A stretch of 64,000 nucleotides of DNA from Burkholderiaceae bacterium (GTDB lineage Bacteria; Pseudomonadota; Gammaproteobacteria; Burkholderiales; Burkholderiaceae): contig JAHFQJ010000006.1 in assembly GCA_023266335.1 (NCBI GenBank), forward strand, positions 1 to 64,000, in the 5' to 3' direction. Made by a program: the position numbers and the translations under genes. Shown in pieces: positions 6,063 to 54,965 of this stretch (position 1 is its first letter; every line of letters starts with the position of its first letter). The notes under the pieces are model-generated. The model did not search any database. It saw only the letters and a list, made by a program, of their open reading frames with translations, and had not been told where the DNA came from.

Positions 6063-6242
6063 TTAAAGCCTTATTTTAACTAGCCTCTTGTTTATCAATT
6101 TTTTTACAAGAGGCTGAATTTCATTTTTAGTAATAGTTTTTTTGTTTTTTAAAATGCATGTGAGATATTTGCGAATGTCATCAACACTATTAACATCTAT
6201 GTTTTTAAGCCATATACATGCTGGTTTATACTCATTAACCAT
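6063..6242 (-). CDS. Possible 59-residue protein between rpsG and fusA
   Basis: A frame from ATG at 6242 to TAA at 6063 fills much of the 352-bp rpsG-fusA gap. It would encode a basic 59-residue protein (MVNEYKPACIWLKNIDVNSV...). There is no Shine-Dalgarno site before the ATG and no recognised family. Its end contains a perfect 9-bp inverted repeat (GCCTCTTGT at 6083-6091, ACAAGAGGC at 6106-6114), which may instead be a regulatory or processing hairpin just upstream of fusA. The open frame could be chance in AT-rich DNA. The rest of the gap (6243-6411) shows only a short AAGTTT/AAACTT palindrome. Confidence 0.25.
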   Translation of the reverse strand: MVNEYKPACIWLKNIDVNSVDDIRKYLTCILKNKKTITKNEIQPLVKKLINKRLVKIRL

Positions 6243-10811: not shown

Positions 10812-10938
10812 TATACTAATTGCAGTTCATTTTGCGACGAGGCAGAAGGAATAAATTACGAAGACTATGTACGTATTAGTACACTGAGGAGTAATTTTGA
10901 CGCCAACGAAACTCGCAAATTGAAATCTGATTAATATA
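10812..10938 (+). mobile_element. MITE-like repeat, copy 1 (127 bp)
   Basis: Full-length copy of the interspersed element. It begins TATACTAATTGCAGTTCATT and ends with the inverse of the other terminus (...TTGAAATCTGATTAATATA). The interior carries AAATTAC/GTAATTT and GTAC...GTAC inverted repeats, so the whole unit can fold on itself. It lies between the aminotransferase start and the queF end. Confidence 0.75.
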
Positions 10939-16515: not shown

Positions 16516-16575
16516 GAAATGATTATATAGTTATACACACTTCTAATTAGAGTGATAATTATGCTTAAAATTCAA

Positions 16576-16702
16576 TATACTAATTGGATTTCAACTTGCG
16601 AACTTCGTTGCAGTCTAAATTACTCCTCAATGTACTAATATGTACACAGTCATCGTAATTTATTCCTGTCGCCTCGTCGTAAAATGAACTGCAATTAGTA
16701 TA
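16576..16702 (-). mobile_element. MITE-like repeat, copy 2 (127 bp, reference copy)
   Basis: Best-preserved copy. The two ends, TATACTAATTGGATTTCAAC and (inverted) TATACTAATTGCAGTTCATT, form imperfect terminal inverted repeats that match at about 22 of 26 positions. Its length equals copy 1 in opposite orientation. It fills much of the 397-bp gap between waaA and cas9; the rest of the gap is plain A/T-rich DNA plus a terminator at 16881-16896. Confidence 0.8.
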
Positions 16703-16912: not shown

Positions 16913-19900
16913 CTATTTATTGTGATTAATTTCTATAACTTGTCCAATTGGATTAACTAAAACTTTTTTAGCTTTCCACTTTTCAATTAAACTGGCAGGA
17001 GATGCTGACTGCATAATTAATGAATTACTTTTTAATTTTGCTCTATCTCTTGCATCGCAATTTGTTTCAAAATGTTCATTAAATACTATTGAACCATTGT
17101 TTATTTTTTGTATGTAAACTAATTTATCTTCTTTATTATTTTTATCAGTAATTTTCAATATATCTCCTGAAATTAAACGCATAATTAGTTTATTTCCGCA
17201 AAAGCTATTTTTTTGATAATCCTTTGTCTTCATAAATTTTTGGTATTCTTTTTGGTTTGCCTGATAAGTGGTAATTAATTCACCACTATACTTTCCCTTA
17301 TCATCTAAAAAAATCTCATAGCAATAATTACTTCCTAACTTATAGTATTTGTAGGTTTCATTTTGTGTATTTTGTATACCAATTACTGAGTTTTCTTTGA
17401 CTGCATCTTTTTTAGTTCCTGTTTTTTGATACTCTTTTTTATCATAAATAAACTCTTTAATATTATTTTCCTGTATCATGAAGCGTGCTGATTCTTCATG
17501 TAATCTACTTTGCGTTCCATGATCAGGTTTATGACTAACCACAATTTGATTTATTTTATATTCTAAATCACCGCGTAAAGTTTTTGGAACATCTATTTGA
17601 ATTATACTATTATCAATTTTTTGTTTTTCTTTAGGGGATAAATGACTAGTATCACGTTCAAAATTACTTATTTTTTGTACTAAACTTACATCTGCTAAAG
17701 CAATCATTACTGCATCTAAAGCGTGATGGCGGTTATCATTACGGTTTTTTTGTTTTTTCTTAGCATCACTATATTTTTTATTTGCATTTTCTTGTTCTTT
17801 ATCAGATAAACCATCTAGATTTTCGCTAATTAAACTTTTAAAATAATCAAATAATTGTTTGCCTAAAGGAATATTTACAATATCTTTTAACATGGCTAAA
17901 TATTTTAACTGCCCCTCAGGTAAATTATCTAAACCTTTAATTTCTAAATTTTCAATATCGCTTTCAATATTTCCTTTGACTTCTTTTTGTTCAGCTGTCC
18001 ATAATAAATTATTTAATTTCCATTCATTCCGCATATGTGCAGTAATTTTTCCGCTTGGAATAGCCTGCACACAATTATTGCGTATTGGCTTGCCTGTTAT
18101 ATCTTTTTCATCATATAAAGACTGTAAATACATACGTGTAACCCGTGCCATATACCTTGTATCATTTAATAAACGTTCCTGCGGTTTTCTATCAGTATTA
18201 TTATTTAAATAATTTACACCTTGTTCTAAACATTTCCATTGCTTCCAAGCGGGTAAAGTTTCAACCCGTTTCGTAAAGCTTTCTATATTTTGCCCGGTTT
18301 TAACTGCCCATTCCCATGGAGTTAAATTTGATTTATCGCGGTTTGCGCTTCTTTGCACTAAAAGTTTATTTGTTTTAGCATCATCAAAACTGCGGCTGCG
18401 CGGTAAAATGTGGTCAACTTCCCAATCATTCCACTGAATTTTAAAATTAGCACATTCTTTAGGTAATCTTACCCCAGTGTAGATACACTGTGGATTTTCC
18501 ATCTTACATAATTCTTTGTATAATTGCCATTTTTCAATGGATAAAGGTGTAGGTACAATTCCTAAACTTAATAAATCTTCTTTTATTTCATTTTTTTCAT
18601 ATTCATTTTTAGTTTGATTTTTAATAATACCTTCAACACTTTTTTGACCTAAACATAAATCACGGGCAAGCTCAATATGAATAAAATCGGGCTTCCCTTG
18701 ATTATGCTCGAAACATTTTTTATATTTTTTTAATAAAAGATTTACAACTTTTCTCACTTCATTTAAAGCAATGTGTACACTCGGATTTGTAATTTTGCCT
18801 AGTTCTATTTCCTGAACATGATTATCATGCAAATTTGAGCGTTTATCACCTTGAATTAAATCAAATAAATTTGTCTGCGGAATACAATATTCCCCAATAA
18901 CTTTGGCATAATACGGCAATTCATTTAAGCCAATCGGGTTGTCATAATGACGATCTTTAAAACAGCAATTTATTTTAGCCTCATGTTGCGAATATCCTTG
19001 TTTTAAATATTCAAGCATCTGCTGCATGGCTTTAGTGCTTAAACTTGCATAATCATCTTTTATTTTTATATGGTTTAACTTATCAATAACTTCATCTGTA
19101 AAATTAAATTTTTCTTTTATTTTATCAGTAAAAAAATTTTCTAATTCAGTTTCAGAATATCTTTTGCTCTTAATAATTTCATTTTCTTGTTGAGATAAAA
19201 AATGTTTATCTTGACTAATCAAGCTGACTAACTCATCTAATTCATTTAAATTAAAGCTATCAAATTTTTCTTTACCCAAAATTTCAATTAATTGAGTACA
19301 AGTTGCAGCCCCTTCAATAGCCTCTTTCTTTTTATTATCTAAATTTGCTTTCCATTTATCCGCTTCTTTTTTATTTACGAATAACGATTGTATTAATTTA
19401 GTGAATTTAATTTTAAACTTATCATCAAGACAATTTTTATCTAATAATATACTAATCAATTGTTGTTTTTCCGCTAAATTTAATGCATAGATATTTTTTT
19501 CAGGGTTGTGAATAGACAGCTTTAATTCTAAATTGTTAATTTCTGCCCAAATTCTATATAATTCTGTAGTCGGCAGGCATAAAGCAGCCCGTTTTTCATT
19601 TTTAATATAAGTACAATGCCCAACAGCCGGCGTTTTTAGCGGTCTTTGAAAAAATATAACTTTACGGATTTTATTTTTAATTTCCTGATTTAAAATTGCC
19701 GGATAAAATTCAGCTTGCTTATCCCATAATACATTAAACTCATCTAAAATCATTTTACGGTCAAAATAATTTTCATAGCTGTCAATTTTATCACTATCTC
19801 CTCCGTCTTTATTTTTTCTATGTATTTTCTTGCACAATGTACTGTCTCCATGGCTAAAACGATCCCATAATAATTGACCTACAGTTGTGAGATTATTTTT

Positions 19901-20488
19901 GTATATATCTGCATATAAATTAGCAATAGTTTTTTTGACAGGACTGGAATTTTTATTTTCAAATGTTCCATCTTTCATGTCTTGAATATTCTGCTCTGTT
20001 AGAACTTCTGCATTTTCTACCTTTTGTAAGTCTTTACGGCTGCTTTTAAAGCCCCGGCGCTGCTGTAAATGAAATAATGCTCTGCCTAATTCAAATAAAC
20101 TAATTTGCTGATTAACGCCATCAGCTCTTAATTTGTAAGGATTTCTTTTTTGTAAATTTTTAGCTTGTGCTGTATCTTTAGGCATTAAGCCAATTTCCTG
20201 TAGAAAATAAAATAAGTGCATACGCCTGCCGCGTTTACGGTCAATTTGCCGGCGGGCTTGGCGTGCATCTCTTCTTGTTTTAGCTAAACTATCCCCTAAA
20301 CCACCTGTTTTACTTGAATTTCTGCCGTCGCTAAAAATCCGGCTTCCCATACCTATTATTGAATCATATATATAATAAGGTTTTTCATCTGGATTATTTA
20401 TATTTCGGTTCGATAATTTAACAATCGCCCAGCCAATACTGCTAGTACCTAAATCTAAACCTAAACGGTAAATATATTGATTATGCAT
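16913..20488 (-). CDS. cas9: CRISPR-associated endonuclease Cas9 (type II-C-like)
   Basis: RNA-guided double-strand DNA nuclease. The 1191-residue protein has all catalytic parts: RuvC-I LGLDLGTSSIGWAI with Asp12, an Arg-rich bridge helix (RRDARQARRQIDRKRGRR, about 75-92), RuvC-II IHIELARD with Glu606, an HNH domain VDHILPRSRSFDD with His693 and Asn707/Asn716, and RuvC-III NRHHALDAVMIAL with His922 and Asp925. It should therefore be active. The absence of csn2 and cas4 and the Neisseria-like array organisation point to type II-C, although it is longer than the roughly 1080-residue Neisseria enzyme. Unusually, it is transcribed away from cas1-cas2, in the same direction as the tracrRNA just upstream. 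Confidence 0.97.
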   Translation of the reverse strand: MHNQYIYRLGLDLGTSSIGWAIVKLSNRNINNPDEKPYYIYDSIIGMGSRIFSDGRNSSKTGGLGDSLAKTRRDARQARRQIDRKRGRRMHLFYFLQEIGLMPKDTAQAKNLQKRNPYKLRADGVNQQISLFELGRALFHLQQRRGFKSSRKDLQKVENAEVLTEQNIQDMKDGTFENKNSSPVKKTIANLYADIYKNNLTTVGQLLWDRFSHGDSTLCKKIHRKNKDGGDSDKIDSYENYFDRKMILDEFNVLWDKQAEFYPAILNQEIKNKIRKVIFFQRPLKTPAVGHCTYIKNEKRAALCLPTTELYRIWAEINNLELKLSIHNPEKNIYALNLAEKQQLISILLDKNCLDDKFKIKFTKLIQSLFVNKKEADKWKANLDNKKKEAIEGAATCTQLIEILGKEKFDSFNLNELDELVSLISQDKHFLSQQENEIIKSKRYSETELENFFTDKIKEKFNFTDEVIDKLNHIKIKDDYASLSTKAMQQMLEYLKQGYSQHEAKINCCFKDRHYDNPIGLNELPYYAKVIGEYCIPQTNLFDLIQGDKRSNLHDNHVQEIELGKITNPSVHIALNEVRKVVNLLLKKYKKCFEHNQGKPDFIHIELARDLCLGQKSVEGIIKNQTKNEYEKNEIKEDLLSLGIVPTPLSIEKWQLYKELCKMENPQCIYTGVRLPKECANFKIQWNDWEVDHILPRSRSFDDAKTNKLLVQRSANRDKSNLTPWEWAVKTGQNIESFTKRVETLPAWKQWKCLEQGVNYLNNNTDRKPQERLLNDTRYMARVTRMYLQSLYDEKDITGKPIRNNCVQAIPSGKITAHMRNEWKLNNLLWTAEQKEVKGNIESDIENLEIKGLDNLPEGQLKYLAMLKDIVNIPLGKQLFDYFKSLISENLDGLSDKEQENANKKYSDAKKKQKNRNDNRHHALDAVMIALADVSLVQKISNFERDTSHLSPKEKQKIDNSIIQIDVPKTLRGDLEYKINQIVVSHKPDHGTQSRLHEESARFMIQENNIKEFIYDKKEYQKTGTKKDAVKENSVIGIQNTQNETYKYYKLGSNYCYEIFLDDKGKYSGELITTYQANQKEYQKFMKTKDYQKNSFCGNKLIMRLISGDILKITDKNNKEDKLVYIQKINNGSIVFNEHFETNCDARDRAKLKSNSLIMQSASPASLIEKWKAKKVLVNPIGQVIEINHNK

Positions 20489-20599
20489 AAAAATCCCTAG
20501 TAAATAAAAATATTTTTTATTGAGCGTTTTTCAAGAATAGTATTAAAAAAATAAATAATCAAACACTGTCCAAAAATAGCAACATTTTCTATAAAATGG

Positions 20600-20700
20600 A
20601 AAAGCCCCTAATAAATTAGGGGCATCATTTGGTGACTTATACAAAAGTAATAGTCTTATTACTCTATTCTAAGCACTATTTCTGATATGAAATAATATAC
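20600..20700 (-). ncRNA. tracrRNA
   Basis: Lies between cas9 and cas1 on the minus strand. Positions 20661-20696 form an anti-repeat that matches the 36-bp CRISPR repeat at 29 of 36 positions. Four of the seven differences are G:U-compatible in the RNA duplex. Next comes a perfect 7-bp nexus-like hairpin (AGTAATA / TATTACT, 20646-20663), then an intrinsic terminator (GCCCCTAA / TTAGGGGC, 4-nt loop, 20604-20623, followed by TTTT on the minus strand). The order anti-repeat, hairpin, terminator is canonical. The 5' end is not defined by the sequence. Confidence 0.88.
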
Positions 20701-20841
20701 ATAAATTCTAGTACAAATTTAATTAAATAAAAAGTTATTCCCTAGTAAAAATTAATTATGTTGTATTTATAAAACAATACTTGGCTTATTTTTTATAAAA
20801 AATAAAATGATAATTATCCACATTACATTATGGGGGTAAAA

Positions 20842-21807
20842 ATGATAGGTAAAATTCTAGAGATTGCCAATAACAACCGTTTTTTATCTTTAAAACGAGG
20901 CTGTATGAATATTAGCGACAGCAAAACAAAGCAAAGCATTGCTGATATTCCATTAGATGATATTGACGGAATAATTTTAAGCGGTCATGGTTTATGGCAT
21001 TCTACAAATTTACTGGCTAAGCTTGCACATTTAGGCATTACAGTGGTGATTATAGATAGTCATTACAAACCAATTGCCATAGTAATTGGTATTTCAAATA
21101 ATACATTACAAGGTCAAAGAATAATTGCACAGCACGATGCAAATTTATCTATGAATAAACGTTTATGGCAAGAAATCGTACAAACTAAATTATTATTTCA
21201 AACTAGTTTACTAGCTTATCATAAAAGCGACAAGACAAATCAAGTAAAATTATTAATCAAAAACGTAAAATCCGGAGACCCAAGTAATTTAGAGGCACAA
21301 GGAGCCAGATATTACTGGCAGGGCTTAATGCAGAAAATTTATCCTGATTTTAAACGTGAGCAAGATTCAAATGATAGTATAAATATTGCTTTAAATTACG
21401 GTTATACAATTTTACGCACTGCTGTTGCAAAAAATATTTTGGCAGCTGGTTTACATGCCGGATGGGGCATACATCATTGCCACCCTAATAATACAATGCC
21501 GTTAGCTGATGATTTGATGGAACCTTTCAGAGCATTTGTTGATGCAAAGGTTTATGCTTTGTCTAAAGGGGGATACTTAAACGATAACGACACAATTAAT
21601 AATATTGCAAAAAAATCTTTAGCTGATGTGATATATACGGATATTTTAATATTGGGAGAAACAAAACCTCTGATTAATTATTTACAAACTTTAGCACAAA
21701 GTTTAGTCAGAATTTATATGAATGAAGGAAAAATATTAGCATTTCCAGAGGTTAAAAAAATTCATTGGGAAGATTTTGAAGAGATTCATAGGAATGAAAA
21801 ATCATGA
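20842..21807 (+). CDS. cas1: CRISPR-associated endonuclease/integrase Cas1
   Basis: Forms the spacer-integration complex with Cas2. I choose the ATG at 20842 because GGGGGT precedes it at proper spacing; an in-frame ATG at 20830 lies inside that ribosome-binding site. The 321-residue product resembles type II Cas1. The metal ligands are visible as Glu151 (DPSNLEAQGARYYW), His212 (GWGIHHCHPNN) and Glu227 (LADDLMEPFR), matching Glu149/His205/Glu220 of Streptococcus pyogenes Cas1. It is divergent from cas9 and the tracrRNA and overlaps cas2 by 4 bp (ATGA), so the two are translationally coupled. Confidence 0.95.
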   Translation: MIGKILEIANNNRFLSLKRGCMNISDSKTKQSIADIPLDDIDGIILSGHGLWHSTNLLAKLAHLGITVVIIDSHYKPIAIVIGISNNTLQGQRIIAQHDANLSMNKRLWQEIVQTKLLFQTSLLAYHKSDKTNQVKLLIKNVKSGDPSNLEAQGARYYWQGLMQKIYPDFKREQDSNDSINIALNYGYTILRTAVAKNILAAGLHAGWGIHHCHPNNTMPLADDLMEPFRAFVDAKVYALSKGGYLNDNDTINNIAKKSLADVIYTDILILGETKPLINYLQTLAQSLVRIYMNEGKILAFPEVKKIHWEDFEEIHRNEKS

Positions 21808-22139
21808 GCATAATGTCAGGATATAAAATTATGTGGATGTTTGTATTATTTGATTTACCTGTTGTAACAAAATCACAAAGAAAAAGTGCCTCAAAATTTA
21901 GAAATGATTTATTAAATTTAGGATTTTTAATGCATCAATTTTCTGTATACATTAAACGATGCCCCGGTAGAGAGAAAGTAGATTCATTAATTACAAAAAT
22001 AAATAAGAAGTTACCCCATAATGGAAAAGTGGATATTATCTGGATAACAGATAAACAATTTGCTGATTCTATACAAATTTGGGAGGGTATACATACTGAA
22101 AAAGATGTCAAAAAAGAAGAAAATTTGATGATTTTTTAG
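21804..22139 (+). CDS. cas2: CRISPR-associated protein Cas2
   Basis: Structural partner of Cas1 in spacer acquisition, with a ferredoxin-like fold. The 111-residue protein has the N-terminal beta strand MWMFVLFDLPV with the conserved Asp17, then QRKSASKFRNDLLNLGFLMHQFSVYIKRC, as in type II Cas2. Translation may start at the overlapping ATG at 21804 or at Met4 (21813). It ends 36 bp before a bidirectional terminator and about 70 bp before the first CRISPR repeat, so adaptation genes and array are directly adjacent. Confidence 0.95.
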   Translation: MSIMSGYKIMWMFVLFDLPVVTKSQRKSASKFRNDLLNLGFLMHQFSVYIKRCPGREKVDSLITKINKKLPHNGKVDIIWITDKQFADSIQIWEGIHTEKDVKKEENLMIF

Positions 22140-22175
22140 TGTAAAATATAGAATTATTCACTACTAAAAACGATG

Positions 22176-22200
22176 AAACCCCTTGATTATCAAGGGGTTT
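22176..22200. terminator. Bidirectional terminator between cas2 and the CRISPR array
   Basis: A perfect 11-bp stem (AAACCCCTTGA / TCAAGGGGTTT) with a 3-nt loop, only 10 bp from the first repeat. It can end the cas1-cas2 message on the plus strand and the crRNA transcripts arriving from the array on the minus strand. It also occupies most of the space where a leader would lie. Confidence 0.8.
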
Positions 22201-22210
22201 TAAGTTTGCG

Positions 22211-23803
22211 ATTATATCACATCAGAAATAGTACTAAGAAGAGAACGATATTTGACCTTTACTGGGTTTGTAGTTGATTATATCACATCAGAAATAGTAC
22301 TAAGAAGAGAACGAACTTAGTTCATCTGATGAATAATGCATTATTATATCACATCAGAAATAGTACTAAGAAGAGAACGATAGACTTCTCTCCAATGGTC
22401 GGAGTCTTTATTATATCACATCAGAAATAGTACTAAGAAGAGAACTATTTAAAAAAAATAATAATAGTTATTATAATTATATCACATCAGAAATAGTACT
22501 AAGAAGAGAACTTGATGCAACAGATGGGGATACGGTTAAATCATTATATCACATCAGAAATAGTACTAAGAAGAGAACTACTTATAATATATATTTGCTA
22601 TAATTAAAATTATATCACATCAGAAATAGTACTAAGAAGAGAACGGTTATTCCCTTACGGTGTTTTATTCTCCAATTATATCACATCAGAAATAGTACTA
22701 AGAAGAGAACATCAAGCGTTATATCAGGCGTAACTAAGTCATTATATCACATCAGAAATAGTACTAAGAAGAGAACAACCCTTCAATACATGGTTCAGTA
22801 AATTCTATTATATCACATCAGAAATAGTACTAAGAAGAGAACAAGGCGGCGAATGTCAATTACAAGATTTGGCTATTATATCACATCAGAAATAGTACTA
22901 AGAAGAGAACAAGGGGGCCGCGATAGAAGATTGCGCTAAAATTATATCACATCAGAAATAGTACTAAGAAGAGAACTATTATAATGTTGTGATTTAAATC
23001 TGCTATATTATATCACATCAGAAATAGTACTAAGAAGAGAACATTGGTATTTGATAATCGAAATTTGAATTTATTATATCACATCAGAAATAGTACTAAG
23101 AAGAGAACGAGCCGTTTGTGGGGATTACACAGAAATAAATTATATCACATCAGAAATAGTACTAAGAAGAGAACTGGCGTTATTGGGCATATTGGCATAT
23201 ACTATTATATCACATCAGAAATAGTACTAAGAAGAGAACAACTTCCCGATTAATTAAGCAGAATATATTATTATATCACATCAGAAATAGTACTAAGAAG
23301 AGAACAGATAATTCTCAGCATTCTTCTCAATGGCATTATATCACATCAGAAATAGTACTAAGAAGAGAACACAATAGTATGCTGTGTGCCATTTGTTTGA
23401 TTATATCACATCAGAAATAGTACTAAGAAGAGAACTTTTTAAAAAAGAAATATTTCTTAATCTCAATTATATCACATCAGAAATAGTACTAAGAAGAGAA
23501 CTATAACTCTTTAGGGTGTACAAAAAACCCAATTATATCACATCAGAAATAGTACTAAGAAGAGAACACAAGCAGGAAACCACGAGTTGTATTTCAAATT
23601 ATATCACATCAGAAATAGTACTAAGAAGAGAACTAGGTTTCTATATTAAAATTTTGCCTAGCCATTATATCACATCAGAAATAGTACTAAGAAGAGAACC
23701 AAACCGGAAACCATGAGTTATATTTCAAAATTATATCACATCAGAAATAGTACTAAGAAGAGAACCCTAGCAAAAGTTTCAGGTGTTCCAAATATTAATT
23801 ATA
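22211..23803 (-). promoter_or_regulatory. Extended -10 promoter inside every CRISPR repeat
   Basis: On the minus strand every perfect repeat ends in TGATATAAT, an exact match to the extended -10 consensus TG-n-TATAAT, placed so that transcription would begin a few bases into the next spacer. The degenerate end repeat keeps TATAAT but has CGG in place of TGA. The same design in Neisseria and Campylobacter type II-C loci gives each crRNA its own promoter. That it works here is inference. Confidence 0.75.
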
Positions 23804-23833
23804 CCGCATCAAGAATAAGACCGATTATAATAT
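22211..23833 (-). CRISPR. CRISPR array: 24 perfect 36-bp repeats plus one degenerate terminal repeat, 24 spacers
   Basis: Perfect repeats start at 22211 and recur to 23730-23765; on the plus strand each begins ATTATATCACATCAGAAATA and ends in AAGAGAAC. A degenerate repeat at 23798-23833 keeps only parts of the first half (ATTATA, GCATCA). Spacers are 29-32 bp, mostly 30 (17 of 24). The crRNA sense is the minus strand, as shown by the tracrRNA anti-repeat: each repeat reads GTTCTCTTC... and ends TGATATAAT. Spacers 23568-23597 and 23700-23729 are near-duplicates. Open frames across the array are produced by the repeats and are not genes. Confidence 0.99.
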
Positions 23834-23849
23834 AAACACGTTCTAATAC

Positions 23850-31185: not shown

Positions 31186-31312
31186 TATACCAATCGCATT
31201 TCAATTTTCGAACTTTAGCGTCGTCAAAATTACACCTTAATGTAATAATATGTACATAGTCGTTATAATTTATTCCTACCAACTTTTTGTAAAATGAACC
31301 ACAATTAGTATT
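31186..31312 (-). mobile_element. MITE-like repeat, copy 3 (127 bp, diverged)
   Basis: Same orientation and length as copy 2, but with more substitutions (CATTTCAATTTTCGAACTT on the left, AATGAACCACAATTAGTATT on the right), so probably an older insertion. It fills the middle of the 313-bp gap between secA and hpnD; the rest of that gap shows nothing I can name. Confidence 0.7.
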
Positions 31313-33396: not shown

Positions 33397-33535
33397 TGAC
33401 TAAATTTTAAATTTGAGAATTTTTAAATTATATGTTTATATTTATATAAAATATATTTGAGTTATTTTATCGTCAAACAATTAATTAAAATCCATAAGAT
33501 AATAACTATCTTATGGAGTGTAAATTCAGGAGTTA

Positions 33536-33674
33536 TATACTATATCAGATTTCAATTTTTAAACTTCGCTGTCGTCAAGATTATCAAAATTACTTCTCAA
33601 TATACTAATATGTATATATCTGTCATAATTTATTCCTGCAGCCTTGCCTCAAAATGAACTATAATTAGTCTATA
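33536..33674 (-). mobile_element. MITE-like repeat, copy 4 (about 139 bp)
   Basis: Same orientation as copy 2, with a small internal duplication or insertion near 33580 (TCAAGATTATCAAAATTAC). Its inner end abuts the rpoC stop, and its outer end lies in the 278-bp gap before hpnC. Termini are recognisable (ATCAGATTTCAATTT, AATGAACTATAATTAG) but diverged. Confidence 0.68.
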
Positions 33675-36600
33675 CTATGAATTATCATCATGATAATTTT
33701 CATCTCCATTTTCATTTTCATCTTTTATAGAAAAATCTTCTTCTTCATTTTCTACGTCAATTTCACCAAGCATTTGACCCAGTGCTTGACTTAAAGCTGA
33801 AAAATTTGACTTATTTGAGCTAGCATTTTCATTAAAATTTGCTGATGGATTATCGACAGAATCTTCTCTATCATCAATTACACTGTCTTTAAAAATTTCA
33901 GAAATGTCTAATCTTGATGCCCTTGAAGATTTTGGTTTATCATCTTGCTTCTCTGCCTTAAATTTCTCGCCAAATACTGAAGTTACTAATGCTGCTGTAT
34001 CTTCGTTTTGCAAGTCCTGCTGCATTAAAGAATTAAACTTGTTTTTATCTTCTAACTCTTTATTTTTTCTTGCTCTATGATAAGCTAAACCAGTACCTGC
34101 AGGTATGAGACGACCTACAATTACATTTTCTTTTAATCCGCGTAAATCGTCTACTTTCCCCATGATTGCTGCTTCAGTTAATACACGAGTAGTTTCTTGG
34201 AATGAAGCTGCTGAAATAAATGAATCAGTTGATAAAGATGCTTTTGTAATACCAAGTAATAAATTAATATAATTACAAGGGCGTTTACCTTGATTAATCA
34301 TTTGTTCATTCATGATTAACATTTCAGAACGCTCTACTTGTTCGCCCATGATAAAGCCGGTATCTCCTGAATCAGAAATTTGAACACGTCTTAACATCTG
34401 GCGTACAACAACTTCAATATGTTTATCATTGATTTTTACACCTTGGAGACGATATACGTCTTGTACTTCATCTACAATATAACGTGCTAATTCTTCAACC
34501 CCTTTCAAGCGTAAAATATCATGCGGATCTGCCGGACCATCTACAATCATTTCACCTTTGTTAACTACTTGTCCATCGTGAACTAATACTTGCTTATCTT
34601 TAGCAATTAAAAATTCGTTAGTTTCGCCATCTAAATCAGTAATTACTAAGCGCTGCTTACCTTTTGTATCTTTACCAAATGAAACAGTTCCTGTAACTTC
34701 AGCTAAAATTGCTGCATCTTTTGGCGCACGTGCTTCAAATAATTCAGCAACTCGCGGTAAGCCACCTGTAATATCTCTAGTTTTTTGAGATTCAGTTGGA
34801 ATACGTGCTAACACTTCACCAATACCTACCTGTTGCCCATCTTTAACGGTAATTAATGCACCTACAGGAAATGAAATAGTTACAGAATGGTCTGTACCTG
34901 GAATTTTTATTTCATGCCCTTTTTCATCGATAATTTTTACTTGAGGTCTTACATTTTTTAGACTTGTACTGCGGCGTTTCCCATCAATTACTACAAGAGT
35001 TGATAAACCCGTAACTTCATCTACCTGTTTTGCAACAGTTACACCTTCTTCAATATTTTCAAAACGTATTGTGCCGGTATATTCAGTAATAATAGGTCTA
35101 GTCAATGGATCCCAGCTTGCTAATTGAGTGCCGGCTTTAATATTTTGATCAGATTTTACTAATAATGTTGCACCATAAGGTATTTTATGGCGTTCACGTT
35201 CCCTGCTGTTATCATCATTAATAACAACTTCACCGGAACGGGAAATTACAATTTGTTCACCTTTGGCATTTTTTACAATACGAATACCATTGGTTAATAA
35301 TATATTACCATTAGATTTAGCTTCAACACTAGAAACTACAGCTGCCCGCGATGCTGCACCTCCAATATGGAATGTACGCATTGTTAACTGCGTTCCAGGT
35401 TCGCCAATTGATTGGGCTGCAATAACGCCTACAGCCTCTCCTGAATCTACCAAGCCTCCACGCCCTAAATCACGTCCATAGCATTTTGCACATAAGCCGT
35501 GTCTGGTTTCACAAGTTAATGGAGTACGTACTCTTACTTCGTCAACACCTAGGCTATCAATTAAATCTACTAAATCTTCATCTAATAAGGTTCCAGCATA
35601 AATAGCTGTTTCTTGAGTTTCCGGATTTACAACATCGGCTAGAACAACACGTCCCAATACTCTATCACGCAGTGCCTCAACTACTTCACCGCCTTCAATT
35701 AAGGCTTTCATAGCTACACCATTATTTGTACCGCAATCGTCTTCTGTTACAACTAAATCTTGTGTAACATCAACTAAACGGCGTGTCAAATAACCGGAGT
35801 TAGCCGTTTTTAATGCTGTATCCGCTAAACCTTTACGCGCCCCATGAGTTGAAATAAAGTATTGTAATACGTTTAGTCCTTCTCTAAAGTTTGCCGTAAT
35901 TGGTGTTTCAATAATAGAGCCGTCTGGTTTTGCCATAAGACCGCGCATACCTGCTAACTGTCTAATCTGTGCAGCAGAACCCCTAGCACCTGAATCTGCC
36001 ATCATATAGATAGCGTTAAATGATTCATGTTTTACGGTATTGCCGTCTCTATCTATTAAATCTTGTTTAGAAATATTCTCCATCATGGCTTTACCTACCG
36101 CATCAGAGGTTGAACCCCATATATCCACCACGTTGTTATAACGTTCCTGGTTGGTAATTAAACCTGAAGAATATTGTTTATCATATTCTTTTACTTTTTG
36201 AGCAGCTTGATTAATAATTCCTTCTTTTACATTTGGAATTAACATATCCGCAATAGAAATAGAAATACCGCCGCGTGTAGCAAACGTAAATCCAGTCTGC
36301 ATTAAATTATCAGCTAAATCAACAGTTGCCTGCAAGCCACAACGTCTAAAAGCTGTATTAATGAGTTTTGAAATTTCCTTCTTTTTAAGAGTTTTATTAA
36401 TATTATCAAACTCTAAGCCCTTAGGTAAAATTTCTGAAAGAATAGCACGCCCTACAGTAGTATTCACTAATCTAGTTTTTGCTGTAAATTTTTCATCACC
36501 TTTTGCATTTTTATTTGTTAATGCATATTCAGTAATTCTTACTTTAATGTGTGAGCCTAATTCAACTTGACGTGTATCATAAGCACGGCGCACTTCAGAT

Positions 36601-38192
36601 GTATCTGAAAATACCATGCCTTCACCTAAGCCATTAATTCTATCACGGGTTAAATAATATAAACCGAGTACAATATCTTGAGATGGTACAATTGACGGAT
36701 CACCACTGGCCGGGAATAATAAATTATTAGAAGCCATCATTAATGTACGTGCTTCTAATTGTGCCTCTAGTGAAAGCGGAACGTGAACTGCCATTTGGTC
36801 ACCGTCAAAGTCGGCATTAAATGCTGCACAAACTAAGGGGTGAAGCTGAATCGCCTTACCTTCAATTAATATAGGTTCAAATGCTTGAATACCTAATCTA
36901 TGCAGGGTTGGAGCGCGGTTTAATAATACAGGATGTTCCTTAATTACATCTTCTAAAATATCCCAAACTACAGCTGTTTGATTTTCAACTTCTTTTTTAG
37001 CTGCCTTAATTGTAGTAGCAATGCCTTGCTCTTCAAGCTTATTAAAAATAAATGGCTTAAATAATTCTAATGCCATTAATTTTGGTAAACCGCATTGATG
37101 TAATCTTAATGTTGGACCTACTACAATTACAGAGCGTCCTGAATAGTCTACACGCTTACCTAATAAGTTCTGACGAAAACGTCCGCCCTTACCTTTAATC
37201 ATATCAGCTAAAGATTTTAACGGGCGTTTATTTGCACCAGTCATCGCTTTACCACGCCTGCCATTATCCATTAATGAATCAACAGCTTCCTGCAGCATAC
37301 GTTTTTCATTACGTACGATAATTTCAGGAGCTCTTAATTCTAATAAACGGCGTAAGCGGTTATTACGGTTAATTACTCTGCGGTATAAGTCATTTAAGTC
37401 TGATGTTGCAAAGCGACCGCCGTCTAGTGATACTAAAGGGCGTAATTCCGGCGGCAGTACTGGAATAACATCCATAATCATCCATTCCGGTTTAATTCCG
37501 GAACGTTGAAAGGCTTCCAATACTTTTAAGCGTTTTGCTATTTTTTTAATTTTAGCATCACTGCTGGTTTGCTCTAATTCTTGATGCAGAGTTTTAACTT
37601 CTTTTTCTATATTAATATTTGCGAGAAGTTGTTTAATCCCTTCCGCACCCATTATTGCATCAAATTCACCTTCACCGTACTCCTCACATTTTGCAGTATA
37701 ATCATCTTCACTCATGATTTGCCCAGTTTTTAGCGGAGTTAAACCACCTTCAACTACAACATATGCCTCAAAATATAAAACTCTTTCAATATCTCTTAAA
37801 GCCATATCTAATACCATGCCTAAGCGTGAAGGCAAGCTTTTTAAGAACCAAATATGAGCTACAGGAGTTGATAAATCAATATGACCCATACGTTCACGGC
37901 GTACTTTAGATAAAGTAACTTCTACACCGCATTTTTCACAAATAACACCACGGTGTTTTAGACGTTTATATTTACCGCATAAACATTCGTAGTCTTTAAT
38001 TGGACCAAATATTTTAGCACAGAATAAACCGTCTCTTTCAGGCTTAAAAGTACGATAGTTAATTGTTTCGGGTTTTTTTACTTCGCCATATGACCAAGAA
38101 CGAATTTTTTCAGGTGATGCTAAACTAATTTTAATTGCATCAAATTGTTCATTTTGCTGTGTTTGCTTAAATAAGTCTAATAATGCTTTCAT
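33675..38192 (-). CDS. rpoC: DNA-directed RNA polymerase subunit beta'
   Basis: Largest subunit of RNA polymerase. The 1505 residues include the N-terminal zinc site Cys70/72/85/88 ([19 protein letters not shown]) and the catalytic Mg site [12 protein letters not shown] with Asp461/463/465. The second zinc region [19 protein letters not shown], the trigger-loop region and [11 protein letters not shown] near the end are also present. The tail after that point is about 129 residues, roughly 80 longer than in E. coli, and strongly acidic ([19 protein letters not shown]). It is the last gene of the rpoB...rpoC run and is separated from rpoB by three small genes, the last ending 13 bp before this ATG. 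Confidence 0.98.
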
Positions 38193-38205
38193 TATTATTT
38201 AACCT

Positions 38206-38463
38206 TTATAAATTAAAGTTCGAATAGGTAAGATTTCTCGGATTTTGCATGCAATCTTTAACTTCCTTAAAATCTATTTCATCTATAACAGCACATTCTG
38301 TATGCCATTCTGCACATTCAGAGGGTTTTATATGTATATTTCTATCATCATCATTACCATTTTTTAGAGTAAGATTTATATTCCATGGAGTATTATCACC
38401 GGACATAACCCGCCCAATTTTTTGCTGAGGTCTGATAGGCATTTCACAAATTACACAAGACAT
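38206..38463 (-). CDS. Small Cys/His protein (85 aa) with CxxC...HxxC pattern, between rpoB and rpoC
   Basis: Unrecognised 85-residue protein. It begins MSCVICEMP with Cys3 and Cys6 and has Cys50, His54 and Cys57 (SECAEWHTECAV), a spacing that suits one zinc ion in a treble-clef or RING-like finger. There is no signal peptide or membrane segment. It starts 23 bp after the related 93-residue gene and ends 13 bp before rpoC, so it must be made from the rpoB-rpoC transcript. A regulatory or polymerase-associated role is possible but is only inferred from position. Confidence 0.7.
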   Translation of the reverse strand: MSCVICEMPIRPQQKIGRVMSGDNTPWNINLTLKNGNDDDRNIHIKPSECAEWHTECAVIDEIDFKEVKDCMQNPRNLTYSNFNL

Positions 38464-38486
38464 TTTTACCCCTATCTAATATATCT

Positions 38487-38768
38487 TTAATGATCTTCAT
38501 GCATCTCTCTGGCAATTCCAGCATTTGTTAAATCTTGAGATATATCATCGTAATCCTCAGCACTACCAGCATAATATTCCGCCACACATGATACATGAGC
38601 AGCAACTAAACTACCTGCCTCTAATGCAAATGTAGAGCCACATATATATGCATTTTGAGTAGAATTTGTTAAATTCTTGAAAAGCACATGCTTTTCAGTG
38701 CAAACACTTTCCCAGCATTCAATACAAGCAAAATTAGCTCTATTACAATCTTCAATGCTTATTGCCAT
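38487..38768 (-). CDS. Small Cys/His protein (93 aa) with CxxC...HxxC pattern, between rpoB and rpoC
   Basis: Unrecognised 93-residue protein. Cys15-x2-Cys18 (FACIECWE) and His58-x2-Cys61 (AAHVSCVAEYY) repeat the pattern of the 85-residue neighbour, suggesting paralogy or at least the same zinc-finger type. Cys8, Cys23 and Cys43 are extra. The tail is acidic (SAEDYDDISQDL, REMHEDH). AGAGGAAATAAG upstream of the ATG gives a good ribosome-binding site. It lies on the same strand as rpoB and rpoC within a gap that is nearly always short and empty in other bacteria. Confidence 0.7.
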   Translation of the reverse strand: MAISIEDCNRANFACIECWESVCTEKHVLFKNLTNSTQNAYICGSTFALEAGSLVAAHVSCVAEYYAGSAEDYDDISQDLTNAGIAREMHEDH

Positions 38769-38801
38769 TTTCTTATTTCCTCTAAATCAATGATTAATTT
38801 T

Positions 38802-38891
38802 CTATTGGTGAGATAGAATTGTAGATGGATAAGCATGACCAAAATCTTTATGAATATATGTACATGTTTCTGCACCAATATATAATGCCAT
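38802..38891 (-). CDS. Possible 29-residue peptide directly after rpoB
   Basis: A short frame (MALYIGAETCTYIHKDFGHAYPS...) whose ATG at 38891 overlies the spacer just after the rpoB stop. AGGAAG, overlapping that stop, is a good ribosome-binding site. It is too short to assign to a family. It may be a real leader-like small gene, or a relic of a third member of the Cys/His set. It lies 33 bp before the 93-residue gene. Confidence 0.4.
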   Translation of the reverse strand: MALYIGAETCTYIHKDFGHAYPSTILSHQ

Positions 38892-38893
38892 AA

Positions 38894-41800
38894 TTACTTC
38901 CTATCCAAATCAATATCAATACCTAATGAACGAATTTCTTTAACTAATACATTAAATGATTCAGGCATGCCGGCATCAATAGAAAAATCACCTTTTACAA
39001 TATTTTCATACATTTTAGTCCGTCCGTTTACATCATCAGACTTAACCGTAAGCATTTCTTGTAAAATATATGCAGCTCCATAGCCTTCAAGCGCCCACAC
39101 CTCCATCTCACCCACACGCTGACCGCCAAACTGGGCTTTACCGCCAAGAGGCTGCTGTGTTACTAAAGAATATGGACCAGTTGAACGGGCATGCATTTTA
39201 TCGTCAACTAAATGATGAAGTTTTAATACATACATACACCCCACAGTTACAGGTCTATCAAATATTTCACCTGTCCTGCCGTCATATAATCTTACTTGCT
39301 GGCGGTTTTCTGTAAGTTGTATTTCTTGTACAATTTCTTCAGGGTATGCAATTTCCAGCATTTTAGATATTTGTTTTTCACTAGCTCCGTCAAATACAGG
39401 AGTAGCAAATGGTATACCATTTCTAAGATTTTCAGCCAGATCTAAAATATCTTTATCACTAAATTGCTTAAATTCTTCTATTCTTCCCGTGCCGTTATAG
39501 ACTTCTTCAATGAATTTTTTAATTTTAGTCAGCTTTTCTTGTTTATCCAGCATTTCATTAATGCGGTCGCCAATTCCGCGCGCAGCCCAACCTAAATGTG
39601 TTTCTAAAATCTGCCCAACGTTCATACGTGACGGCACACCAAGCGGATTTAGAACAATATCCACTGTTTTACCATTTGCCATATAAGGCATATCTTCTAC
39701 AGGAACAATTCTAGATACAACCCCTTTATTTCCATGACGCCCCGCCATTTTATCTCCAGGCTGTAATCTGCGTTTAACTGCAATATAAACCTTAACCATT
39801 TTGATTACGCCAGCTGGCAATTCATCACCTTGGGTAAGTTTTTTGCGTTTTTCTTCAAATAATCCATCAAATTCTAAGCGTTTTTGATCAATAGTTTCTT
39901 TGATTGATTCCATTTGATTTTTAAGTTCTTCATTCTCTACACGAATATCAAACCACGCAGAATGACCAATACTAGATAAATAATCTTTAGTGATTATAGT
40001 GCCCTTTGCCAATTTATTTGGACCACCATTAGCGGCTTTACCCTCTAAAACTTTTGCTAAACGTAGGTATGCATCGTTCTGGAAAATACGGATTTGGTCA
40101 TTTAAATCAGTACGGAAACGTTTTAATTGGTCGTCAATAATCGACTGTGCCCTTTTATCGCGTGTTTCACCTTCTCTGGTAAATACCTGCACATCAATAA
40201 CTGTACCATACATACCAGTTGGAACACGTAAAGAAGTATCTTTTACATCACTAGCTTTTTCACCAAAAATAGCCCGTAATAATTTTTCTTCAGGAGTTAA
40301 TTGAGTTTCACCTTTTGGAGTAATTTTACCTACTAATACATCACCGGCTTTTACTTCAGCACCAATATATATAACCCCGCTTTCATCTAGTCTACCTAAT
40401 TGATGTTCAGATAAATTAGAAATATCAGCTGTAATTTCTTCAGAGCCTAATTTTGTATCACGGGCAAATATTGATAGTTCTTCAATATGAATAGATGTAT
40501 AACGGTCTTGAGCAATAACTTTTTCAGAAATTAAAATTGAATCCTCAAAGTTATAGCCATTCCATGGCATAAATGCTACCAGCATATTTTGACCAAGAGC
40601 TAATTCACCTAAGTCAGTTGATGCCCCATCAGCTAATACATCTCCTTTAGAAATAGAATCACCCTTTTTAACTATAGGAGTTTGATTTATATTAGTATTT
40701 TGGTTTGAGCGTGTGTATTTAGTTAAGTTATAAATATCTACACCAACTTCACCAATAATTGTTTCATCATCATTTACTTGTATGATAATACGGTTTGCGT
40801 CAACATATTCAACTATACCGCTGCGTTTTGCAGTAATTACTGTGCCGGAGTCAATTGCTACAATGCGTTCTACACCAGTTCCTATTAATGGTTTATCTGC
40901 ACGAAGACAAGCCACAGCTTGGCGCTGCATATTTGCACCCATCAATGCACGGTTTGCATCATCATGCTCTAAGAATGGTACTAAAGAAGCCGCTGCAGAT
41001 ACAATTTGACTTGGAGCAACATCCATATAATTAATTCTATCCGGCGGAACCATAATTGTTTCGCCATTATTGCGTGATGAAACTAACTCATCTATTAAAT
41101 TACCTTCTTTATCCAAAGTAGCATTTGCTTGTGCAATTGTATATTTAGATTCTTCAATTGCAGATAAATAATCTACAATATCAGTTACCTTACCATTTAA
41201 TACCTGTCTATATGGAGTTTCTAAAAAACCATATTCATTGAGACGTGCATATAAAGATAAAGAATTAATTAATCCAATATTTGGACCTTCAGGCGTTTCA
41301 ATCGGGCATACTCGTCCATAATGTGTTGTATGTACATCACGTACTTCAAAGCCGGCACGTTCACGAGTTAACCCGCCTGGACCTAAAGCAGAAACACGGC
41401 GCTTATGTGTGATTTCTGAAAGAGGATTAGTTTGATCCATAAATTGAGATAATTGACTTGAGCCGAAAAAATCTCTAATTACACTTGAAATTGGTTTAGA
41501 ATTGATTAAATCATGAGGCATTAAATTATCAGAATCCGCCATACCTAACCGTTCTTTAATCGCACGTTCTACGCGGACTAAACCAGCTCTAAATTGATTT
41601 TCTACTAATTCACCAACGCATCGTACACGTCGGTTGCCTAAATGATCAATATCATCAACTTCGCCTCGCCCATTACGCAATTCAACTATCATTTGGATAG
41701 TTTTTATAATGTCATCTTGTGTTAATACTAAAGGACCTTCTTTGCCTTCAATACCTAATCTAGCATTCATTTTCATGCGTCCGACACGAGATAAATCATA

Positions 41801-43012
41801 ATTAGAATCATCGTGAAATAAACGTGAAAATAACATATTTACTGCATCTTCTGTTGGCGGCTCACCTGGTCTAATCATTCTATAAATTGCCATTTGAGCA
41901 GCTTTAGTATCTGTAATATCGTCATTACGTAAAGTTTGAGATATATAAGCACCTTCAGTTAAATCATTAGTATAAATTGTATGAATAGACTTTATACCAG
42001 CCTCTCTAAGAGAAGCTAATAATGGTTCTGTAATTTCATCATTTGCAAAAGCTAATACTTCACCGCTACTTTTATCAATAATATTAGTTGCTAATACCTT
42101 ACCAATTAAAAAATCTTCAGGTACTGTAATACTTTTAGTTTCAGATGTTACTAAATCTCTAACATGTTTAGCATTGATACGTTTATCTTTACCAACGATT
42201 AATTCGCCATTTTGATTATAAATATCAAAGCGTGTAACTTCACCACGCCAGCGTTCGGCTACAAATTCTACTTTAGCTGATTCTTTTAATAAAGATATTT
42301 TATCAAACTTATAGAATGTATCTAAGATTTTTTCATTATCATAACCTAAGGCTTTTAACAATGTACTAATGTACATTTTACGGCGGCGATCAACTCTGAA
42401 ATATAATAAATCTTTAGCATCAAACTCAAAGTCTAACCACGAACCGCGGTAAGGAATAATACGTGCTGAAAATAATAATTTACCAGATGAATGTGTTTTA
42501 CCTTTATCACTTTCAAAAAACACACCCGGCGAGCGATGTAACTGCGATACTATTACACGTTCTGTACCATTAATAATAAAAGAACCAACCGGAGTCATTA
42601 ATGGAACTTCTCCCATATAAACTTCTTGTTCTTTTACTTCTTTAATTTTGTCATGATTTTCTCTATCCATTAAAACTAAGCGCATACGGGCGCGCAAACC
42701 GGATTGAAATGTTAGTCCGCGGATTTGACATTCTTTTATATCAAATAATGGCGAAATTAATGAATAATTTATAAATTCTATACGTGCTAAACGATTATTA
42801 GATACAATTGGGAAAATTGATGTAAATACTGATTGAAGTCCAATATTTTCACGTTTAGTAATTGGAGTATCTTCTTGTAAAAACCCGCAATATGAATTTA
42901 ACTGCATTTCTAGAAGGTAAGGAACTGTGGTAACAGCTACGCTTTGACCAAAACTCTTGCGGATACGTTTTTTCTCGGTATAAGTATAGTGATTAGATTT
43001 TTGCTTTTGCAT
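38894..43012 (-). CDS. rpoB: DNA-directed RNA polymerase subunit beta
   Basis: Second-largest RNA polymerase subunit and site of rifampicin action. I place the start at the ATG at 43012 ([22 protein letters not shown]), preceded by GGGG at good spacing and matching the family start; the frame is open 10 codons further from a GTG. The product has 1372 residues. Seen: the rifampicin region [31 protein letters not shown] with wild-type residues, GHNKGVVSR-type [18 protein letters not shown], and [14 protein letters not shown] near the end. Normally rplJ-rplL precede it; here a UbiH-type gene does, and three small genes follow before rpoC. Confidence 0.97.
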
Positions 43013-43034
43013 GAATACCCCGTTGTTATAGAAA

Positions 43035-43122
43035 AACCACACTCTAAAAGTGGTTCATAAACTTGGGCTGATTTGGTGATTGGCCTCTACCAATCGCTGG
43101 CTGACAGCATTAAGAAAATGCT
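43035..43122 (-). promoter_or_regulatory. Structured rpoB leader with terminator-like hairpin
   Basis: In transcript order there are three hairpins: AGCATT/AATGCT (43106-43122), GATTGG/CCAATC (43078-43095) and AACCAC/GTGGTT (43035-43055). The last is followed directly by a U run (GTGGTTTTTC) about 20 bp before the rpoB start, so it looks like an intrinsic terminator or attenuator. The region is less A/T-rich than its flanks. It could be the relic of the rplL-rpoB junction or an active leader. Confidence 0.5.
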
Positions 43123-53710: not shown

Positions 53711-53744
53711 AATTATTAGAATTGAGATTGTGGTTAATTTATAA

Positions 53745-53869
53745 TATACTAATTGCAGTTCATTTTACGGCGAGGCGCTAGGAATAAATTACGACGACTA
53801 TGTTTATTAGTACATTTAGGAGTAATTTAGACAACAACGAAGTTCGCAAATTAAAATACGACTAGTATA
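53745..53869 (+). mobile_element. MITE-like repeat, copy 6 (125 bp)
   Basis: Orientation as copy 1, beginning TATACTAATTGCAGTTCATT. The far terminus is diverged (AAATTAAAATACGACTAGTATA) and overlaps the end of the GspK gene, giving that gene its last codons (Lys-Ile-Tyr) and TAG stop. Confidence 0.72.
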
Positions 53870-54965
53870 TTTTGTTTGCTGATGAGCCTTCTAAGTACTC
53901 ATCAATGCTTTTAGTTAATTTATTAATGCGTGCAAATATTTTTTTTGAATATTTCCCCTGTTCTACTTTTCCATAAATATCCATATATTGTGTTTTTGTA
54001 TCTAAACAATTTTGTGCTGTATTGATGGAATTTGTATCAGAATAGCTAACTTGTAAATAGTTTACCACATCACTAATATTTGCAGCATATATATTTGGAT
54101 TATTTTTAAAGAAATCTGGTTTTCCCATAGTTGGAATTAGAGACTTCAAAATAATAGGTGCGGCAGTATTTGCATTTATTTTCACATCATAATCTAAAAA
54201 TGTAATATATTTATCTAATTTTTGAATATCCTCTTTAGTATAACCGACTCCTAATAAATCACTTGGGTATCTAAGATTAATTCCGCCTAATATTTTTATA
54301 AGCGACGGCTTTTGCTGCTCTTCTAATTCCAATATATTTAATTTAGGCAGAGTCATATTATAGCTTGAAAAAATATAATATACAGTTTGCCATGCCAAAT
54401 TTGGATCAATTTTTAAATTAGATAATAGATTTTTATATGCATAAAAGTATTTATCATTTAATCCGGCTGGAACTCTTCTGACTACATTTGTGCCTGCACT
54501 ATTATTTTGCCAATTAATAATGCTGTTTACATTAAATTTGCTTTGAGTATCTTCCATGTAGGCTGATAAATATATATATTCATTTTCTTCAACTATTTGA
54601 TTATCATATAATAAACTGCTTATGTTTAAATGATCAATTTTCCATATATTTTCTGCTGCATAATCAAAATCATTATTATCTGAACTAAGTGCTATTTTTG
54701 CCCATGATAATGCTCCTAAGCTTAATCCCTGAAGATTTTGCATAGTTTTTTGCTGTTTTACCCGAGTAATGATTAAATCTTGTTTATGAATAATATATGC
54801 AGCTAAAGAAGTAGTGACGGTTACAAGAAATAAAGCTAATATAATTGCCATTCCTTTTTTATTCATTTTATTTTTATACATAAATATGCTTTGAATATTT
54901 TGAAGCTTTATTTTAGTAAAATTTCCTGCTATGGTATTAAAATTTCCTGCTATGGTATTATGCAT
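53862..54965 (-). CDS. gspK: Type II secretion minor pseudopilin GspK-like protein
   Basis: Tip component of the T2SS pseudopilus by family. The frame allows 367 residues, but a start at Met29 (54881, MYKNKMNKKGMAIIL) or Met34 is likelier. The N-terminus then gives the prepilin form: short basic leader KKG, cleavage before Met, and a hydrophobic helix AIILALFLVTVTTSLAAYI. Further in are the GspK features MEDTQSKFNVNS, TLPKLNILELEE and VKINANTAAPIIL. No other gsp gene is in the window; pilC and pilB precede it. The end of the gene lies in a repeat element. Confidence 0.78.
   Translation of the reverse strand: MHNTIAGNFNTIAGNFTKIKLQNIQSIFMYKNKMNKKGMAIILALFLVTVTTSLAAYIIHKQDLIITRVKQQKTMQNLQGLSLGALSWAKIALSSDNNDFDYAAENIWKIDHLNISSLLYDNQIVEENEYIYLSAYMEDTQSKFNVNSIINWQNNSAGTNVVRRVPAGLNDKYFYAYKNLLSNLKIDPNLAWQTVYYIFSSYNMTLPKLNILELEEQQKPSLIKILGGINLRYPSDLLGVGYTKEDIQKLDKYITFLDYDVKINANTAAPIILKSLIPTMGKPDFFKNNPNIYAANISDVVNYLQVSYSDTNSINTAQNCLDTKTQYMDIYGKVEQGKYSKKIFARINKLTKSIDEYLEGSSANKIY
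54918..54960. repeat. Tandem duplication, 21-bp unit, two copies
   Basis: TTTCCTGCTATGGTATTAAA occurs twice in direct repeat with a 21-bp period. It encodes a repeated Asn-Thr-Ile-Ala-Gly-Asn-Phe in the possible 5' extension of the GspK frame. Because the period is a multiple of three the frame is kept, but the segment precedes the likely start. Confidence 0.8.

Follow-up and report, generated by a model that had tools for sequence, protein, structure and literature searches.

Few bacterial gene pairs are as stable as rpoB and rpoC. What, then, occupies the 701 bp that separate them in this relative of Burkholderia, and do the small genes found there serve the polymerase between whose largest subunits they are encoded? 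The window, which is the whole stretch of 64,000 bp that was analyzed, belongs to an AT-rich genome of 1.96 Mb (about 31% G+C), whose GTDB family, judged from the named loci, is apparently Burkholderiaceae. To judge how unusual the split is, the rpoB-rpoC gap was compared with that of relatives. Both samples used were chosen by similarity to the RpoB of this genome, the larger one being fetched with it, and therefore they are no census; the gap ranged from -4 to 232 bp in the 76 proteobacterial loci and from 1 to 127 bp in 29 genomes drawn from its family or order, whereas it is 701 bp here. Thus, among the relatives sampled, the spacing at this locus is unusual.

A first-pass annotation of the sequence had described three small frames in this interval, all on the same strand as rpoB and rpoC and each with a good ribosome-binding site. 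The coordinates were confirmed, with every gene concerned on the minus strand (Table 1). The successive gaps from rpoB to a 29-codon frame, to a gene for a 93-residue protein, to a gene for an 85-residue protein and to rpoC are 2, 33, 23, and 13 bp. A Shine-Dalgarno-like sequence was found before each start: GGAAG for the 29-codon frame, GAGGAAA for the 93-aa gene, AGGGG for the 85-aa gene, and AAAGG for rpoC. The first of these overlaps the stop codon of rpoB.

Table 1. Features at the rpoB-rpoC locus and copies of an interspersed repeat (positions refer to the window unless another stretch is named)
Feature	Position	Strand	Remarks
rpoB	38894..43042	-	Stop at 38894; at most 75% identity to RpoB proteins from its GTDB family; longest frame begins with GTG at 43042, likelier start an ATG ten codons in
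29-codon frame (P0003, 29 aa)	38802..38891	-	Gene-like codon score; status uncertain
93-aa gene (P0002)	38487..38768	-	Coding-like; C15-x2-C18 ... H58-x2-C61; paralog on contig C25
85-aa gene (P0001)	38206..38463	-	Coding-like codon usage; C3-x2-C6 ... H54-x2-C57; ends 13 bp before rpoC
rpoC	33675..38192	-	Start at 38192; 75-93% identity across proteobacteria over the first 120 residues
MITE-like copy of a ~127-bp interspersed repeat	33534..33672		Abuts the rpoC stop codon
Further MITE-like copies	10812-10938, 16575-16702, 31186-31311, 53739-53873		In the window
MITE-like copies on other contigs	L175:3200-3335, L167:15984-16110 and more		

Next, we examined whether the small frames are genes. 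The codon-usage scores of the 93- and 85-aa frames were within the range of real genes of the window and above those of all 800 to 865 off-frame segments of equal length. When the 701 bp were shuffled 5,000 times, an ATG frame of at least 85 codons arose in 0.3% of the trials, and two such frames never arose together. The 93- and 85-aa frames are genuine genes. The 29-codon frame also had a gene-like codon score, reached by 0.8% of the off-frame segments, but its reality is uncertain because it is short and no relative of it was found; it showed no similarity to the 93- or the 85-aa protein either. No terminator-like site was found in the rpoB-rpoC gap, and promoter-like sites were no commoner there than in shuffled sequence. 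Because of these two results, and because the genes are only 2 to 33 bp apart, the small genes are likely to be cotranscribed with rpoBC; the earlier proposal that they are made from the same message as the polymerase is, on these grounds, very probable. An Rfam scan of the window gave nothing at the gathering score, and weak snoRNA matches in the gap, lying far below the cutoff, were rejected.

The two larger proteins had been described as sharing a Cys-x2-Cys pair followed by His-x2-Cys, and both motifs were found as described. With composition held, this Cys/His pattern arose by chance in 0.17% and 0.6% of shuffles of the two proteins. In 509 kb, about a quarter of the genome and chosen so as to include contig C25, it occurred in 3 of the 136 coding-like small open reading frames, namely, those of the 93-aa protein, the 85-aa protein, and a 94-aa protein encoded on C25. 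The last is the single clear paralog of the 93-aa protein in the genome: the two are 29 to 31% identical, found each other reciprocally in a whole-genome search (E values of 5e-5 and 1e-4) over most of their length, and aligned with a z score of 9.5 to 14.7 against shuffles. C15, C18, H58, and C61 are kept between them, as is C43, whereas Cys8, Cys23, His27, His91, and His93 of the 93-aa protein are not. This conservation of the putative zinc ligands supports part of the first-pass annotation, which had suggested zinc fingers. Its other claim, that the adjacent pair is related by duplication, fared differently: duplication is clear between the 93-aa protein and the C25 paralog, to which it is not linked, whereas the 93- and 85-aa proteins have the motif in common and no significant similarity (global z score of 0.34). 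The 85-aa protein was marginally similar to the C25 paralog (global z score of 3.3, P = 0.003; local P = 0.07), and BLAST comparisons of it gave E values of 17 and 0.86. Since only these three of the 136 small open reading frames carry the motif, and two of them lie side by side, a common ancestry of the 93- and 85-aa proteins is plausible.

Relatives were then sought outside this genome. Searches of more than 1,000 other genomes yielded no relative of the 93-aa family. A profile of all three proteins found nothing beyond its own genome among 399 genomes of the order, nor did a profile built from the clear homologs, namely, the 93-aa protein and the C25 paralog, in 398 genomes of the family and in 369 genomes of the class. 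One weak profile match (E = 0.007) contained a stop and was rejected; matches of the 93-aa protein in 100 relatives, with E values of 0.02 to 2.8, were treated as chance since many had stops or lacked the ligand residues. For the 85-aa protein, no homolog was found by sequence. Profile searches of Pfam, NCBIfam, and PHROGs identified no family for the small proteins and gave only subthreshold noise, with no match of either larger protein in PHROGs. The 93-aa protein had no match in phages or plasmids, the C25 protein had none in phages, the 85-aa protein had only subsignificant Streptomyces matches in plasmids, and neither the 93- nor the 85-aa protein matched viral contigs. The lack of homologs outside this genome in these searches, together with a 29-codon frame that has no relative, would fit inserted DNA whose decayed or nonfunctional remnants are open by chance. 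However, the codon usage is that of real genes, ribosome-binding sites are present, two frames of this length never arose together in the shuffled interval, and the ligands are conserved in the paralog on C25; we regard this explanation as highly improbable.

Structure prediction was of little help in assigning a fold. The AlphaFold2 single-sequence models of the two proteins had a mean pLDDT of 42 and 38, which is too poor to confirm a fold and makes the models unusable; in the low-confidence model obtained for the 93-aa protein, strands precede a helix that begins at the His. Because the models are so poor, what can be said of the domain comes from the ligand pattern: each protein probably has one Cys2-His-Cys metal site, with zinc held in a treble-clef-like domain. 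The order of the ligands is that of LIM and treble-clef Cys2-His-Cys sites. The spacer of a LIM half-site is 16 to 23 residues; the one here is longer, there is one site only, and no profile matched. A search of PDB sequences matched the 93-aa protein weakly to C2H2 zinc finger arrays (PRDM9, E = 0.005), with no stretch passing alone, and these matches were rejected because the 93-aa protein has no second His pair. The three proteins with the motif are all acidic, with net charges of -11, -4, and -5. Therefore, binding to protein would suit them better than unspecific binding to nucleic acid.

Could these be polymerase proteins? The first-pass annotation had suggested that the products could bind the polymerase, tune its assembly, or act as small regulators. 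As lineage-specific accessory factors, they would use the zinc domain to bind the core enzyme, whose assembly or activity they would tune, and their position between rpoB and rpoC, the tight spacing, the good ribosome-binding sites, and the gene-like coding frames all agree with this. Small zinc-containing partners of the polymerase are also known, namely, DksA/TraR and the archaeal Rpo10 and Rpo12. DksA/TraR has a four-cysteine zinc site and a coiled coil. The proteins studied here resemble it in being small and bacterial with one putative zinc site; they differ in that a His replaces one Cys, in the 39 to 47 residues between the ligand pairs, and in having no Pfam match. Against the DksA/TraR models of Pfam and NCBIfam, no match was found (E values up to 1), and among Pfam families and solved structures no match to a polymerase-binding family was obtained. 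The surroundings of the paralog weaken a polymerase role further because it is unlinked to polymerase genes. Gene names read from translations place the C25 paralog by itself, about 290 bp downstream of the frame of a YadA-like adhesin; a small gene and orn face it, and no polymerase gene is nearby. The operon cluster is moreover scrambled throughout (see below), which accounts for the position of the insert. A role on RNA polymerase thus found no support beyond the genomic position, from which it is possible, and accessory factors of this kind seem to us quite unlikely. That the lineage has turned two of its own zinc proteins into stoichiometric partners or regulators of RNA polymerase, with their genes set between those of the two largest subunits, is more doubtful still.

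The adhesin frame upstream of the paralogous zinc motif gene (L147:2-1507) lies at the edge of the contig and covers the C-terminal part of a trimeric, YadA-like adhesin. Such a neighbor, the restriction of the family to one lineage, its divergence, and an AT-rich genome of about 2 Mb would all suit a fast-evolving family of host interaction or conflict, for example, effectors or immunity-type proteins. However, a single adhesin neighbor is weak evidence, no signal peptide or other export signal is evident in these small acidic proteins, neither locus has an evident toxin partner beside it, and, with only three members found, the family is not an expanded one. We therefore hold a function in host interaction or conflict to be unlikely.

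We next considered the surroundings of rpoBC. This genome no longer has the ancestral secE-nusG-rplKAJL-rpoBC-rpsLG-fusA-tuf-S10 cluster in one piece. secE-nusG-rplKAJL lies on another contig, C37 (L158 544-5592; rplL was identified by profile and the other genes were read from translations), apart from rpoBC, and lnt starts 10 bp after rplL. Upstream of rpoB are genes for an FAD-dependent oxygenase, a glutaredoxin, and an HslU/ClpX-like ATPase. After rpoC come a MITE-like repeat and two squalene/phytoene synthase genes. Farther downstream, an interval of 26 kb that includes secA, a type II CRISPR-Cas locus (Cas9), and other genes separates rpoC from the rpsL-rpsG-fusA-tuf-rpsJ run; this run ends in a poly(A) polymerase gene, not in rplC. 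At the insert itself, no DNA repeat or trace of a mobile element was found.

Because the whole cluster is rearranged, the position of the insert can be explained without a functional link to the polymerase. We favor, with moderate confidence, the explanation that the 93- and 85-aa genes are two lineage-restricted genes for single-site, zinc finger-like acidic proteins that came to ride in the rpoBC message through operon invasion and are not directed at the polymerase. The small genes would have landed between rpoB and rpoC as the secE-rpoBC-str-S10 cluster was invaded and broken up; they would be transcribed within the rpoBC unit, translated from their own ribosome-binding sites, and tolerated as passengers. 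Their products, acidic single-domain proteins of the cytosol, would most likely serve as small adaptors or regulators that bind protein and have no part in polymerase assembly. As a counterpoint, the intact state of these genes in an essential operon could reflect selection for that very position.

In the part of a study of this cluster used here, secE-rpoBC-str-S10 breaks by the insertion of a few genes and then by full separation (PMC8046335). Neighboring operons become separated there as they are here, where this has happened on both sides of rpoBC. The insertions in that part of the study lie between operons or between rplL and rsmC and consist of genes of known families, and an insertion between rpoB and rpoC is not among the examples described in it. 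The insert fits one more event of cluster breaking, unusual in hitting the most intimate pair. Because rpoB-rpoC is so stable a pair, the insertion would show how far operon invasion can go. Small single-domain proteins with zinc finger motifs have been described in archaea, such as the one-domain micro-proteins of Haloferax, under 70 aa (PMC6562870), and Brz of Halobacterium, whose gene immediately precedes its target, bop (PMC2253796). The proteins studied here are like them by description, but they are bacterial, longer than the Haloferax set, and have a metal site that is putative. Should the products bind the polymerase, they would be lineage-specific transcription factors of a new kind; otherwise, the locus would be a clean case of orphan small genes riding on an essential message.

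Several other features were observed in the window. The type II CRISPR-Cas locus between rpoC and rpsL (Cas9 of 1,191 aa) and an adjoining array of short repeats occupy positions 16913-22139 and 22173-23835. Small frames with no Pfam match are also present in the str cluster, one of 59 aa with a weak coding score just before fusA (6063-6242) and one of 101 aa with a signal peptide-like start after rpsJ (1758-2063). The repeat of about 127 bp that abuts rpoC looks like a MITE family: it has inverted ends of the ACTAAT type, and its copies, about 70 to 88% identical, occur in many of the genome stretches that were read.
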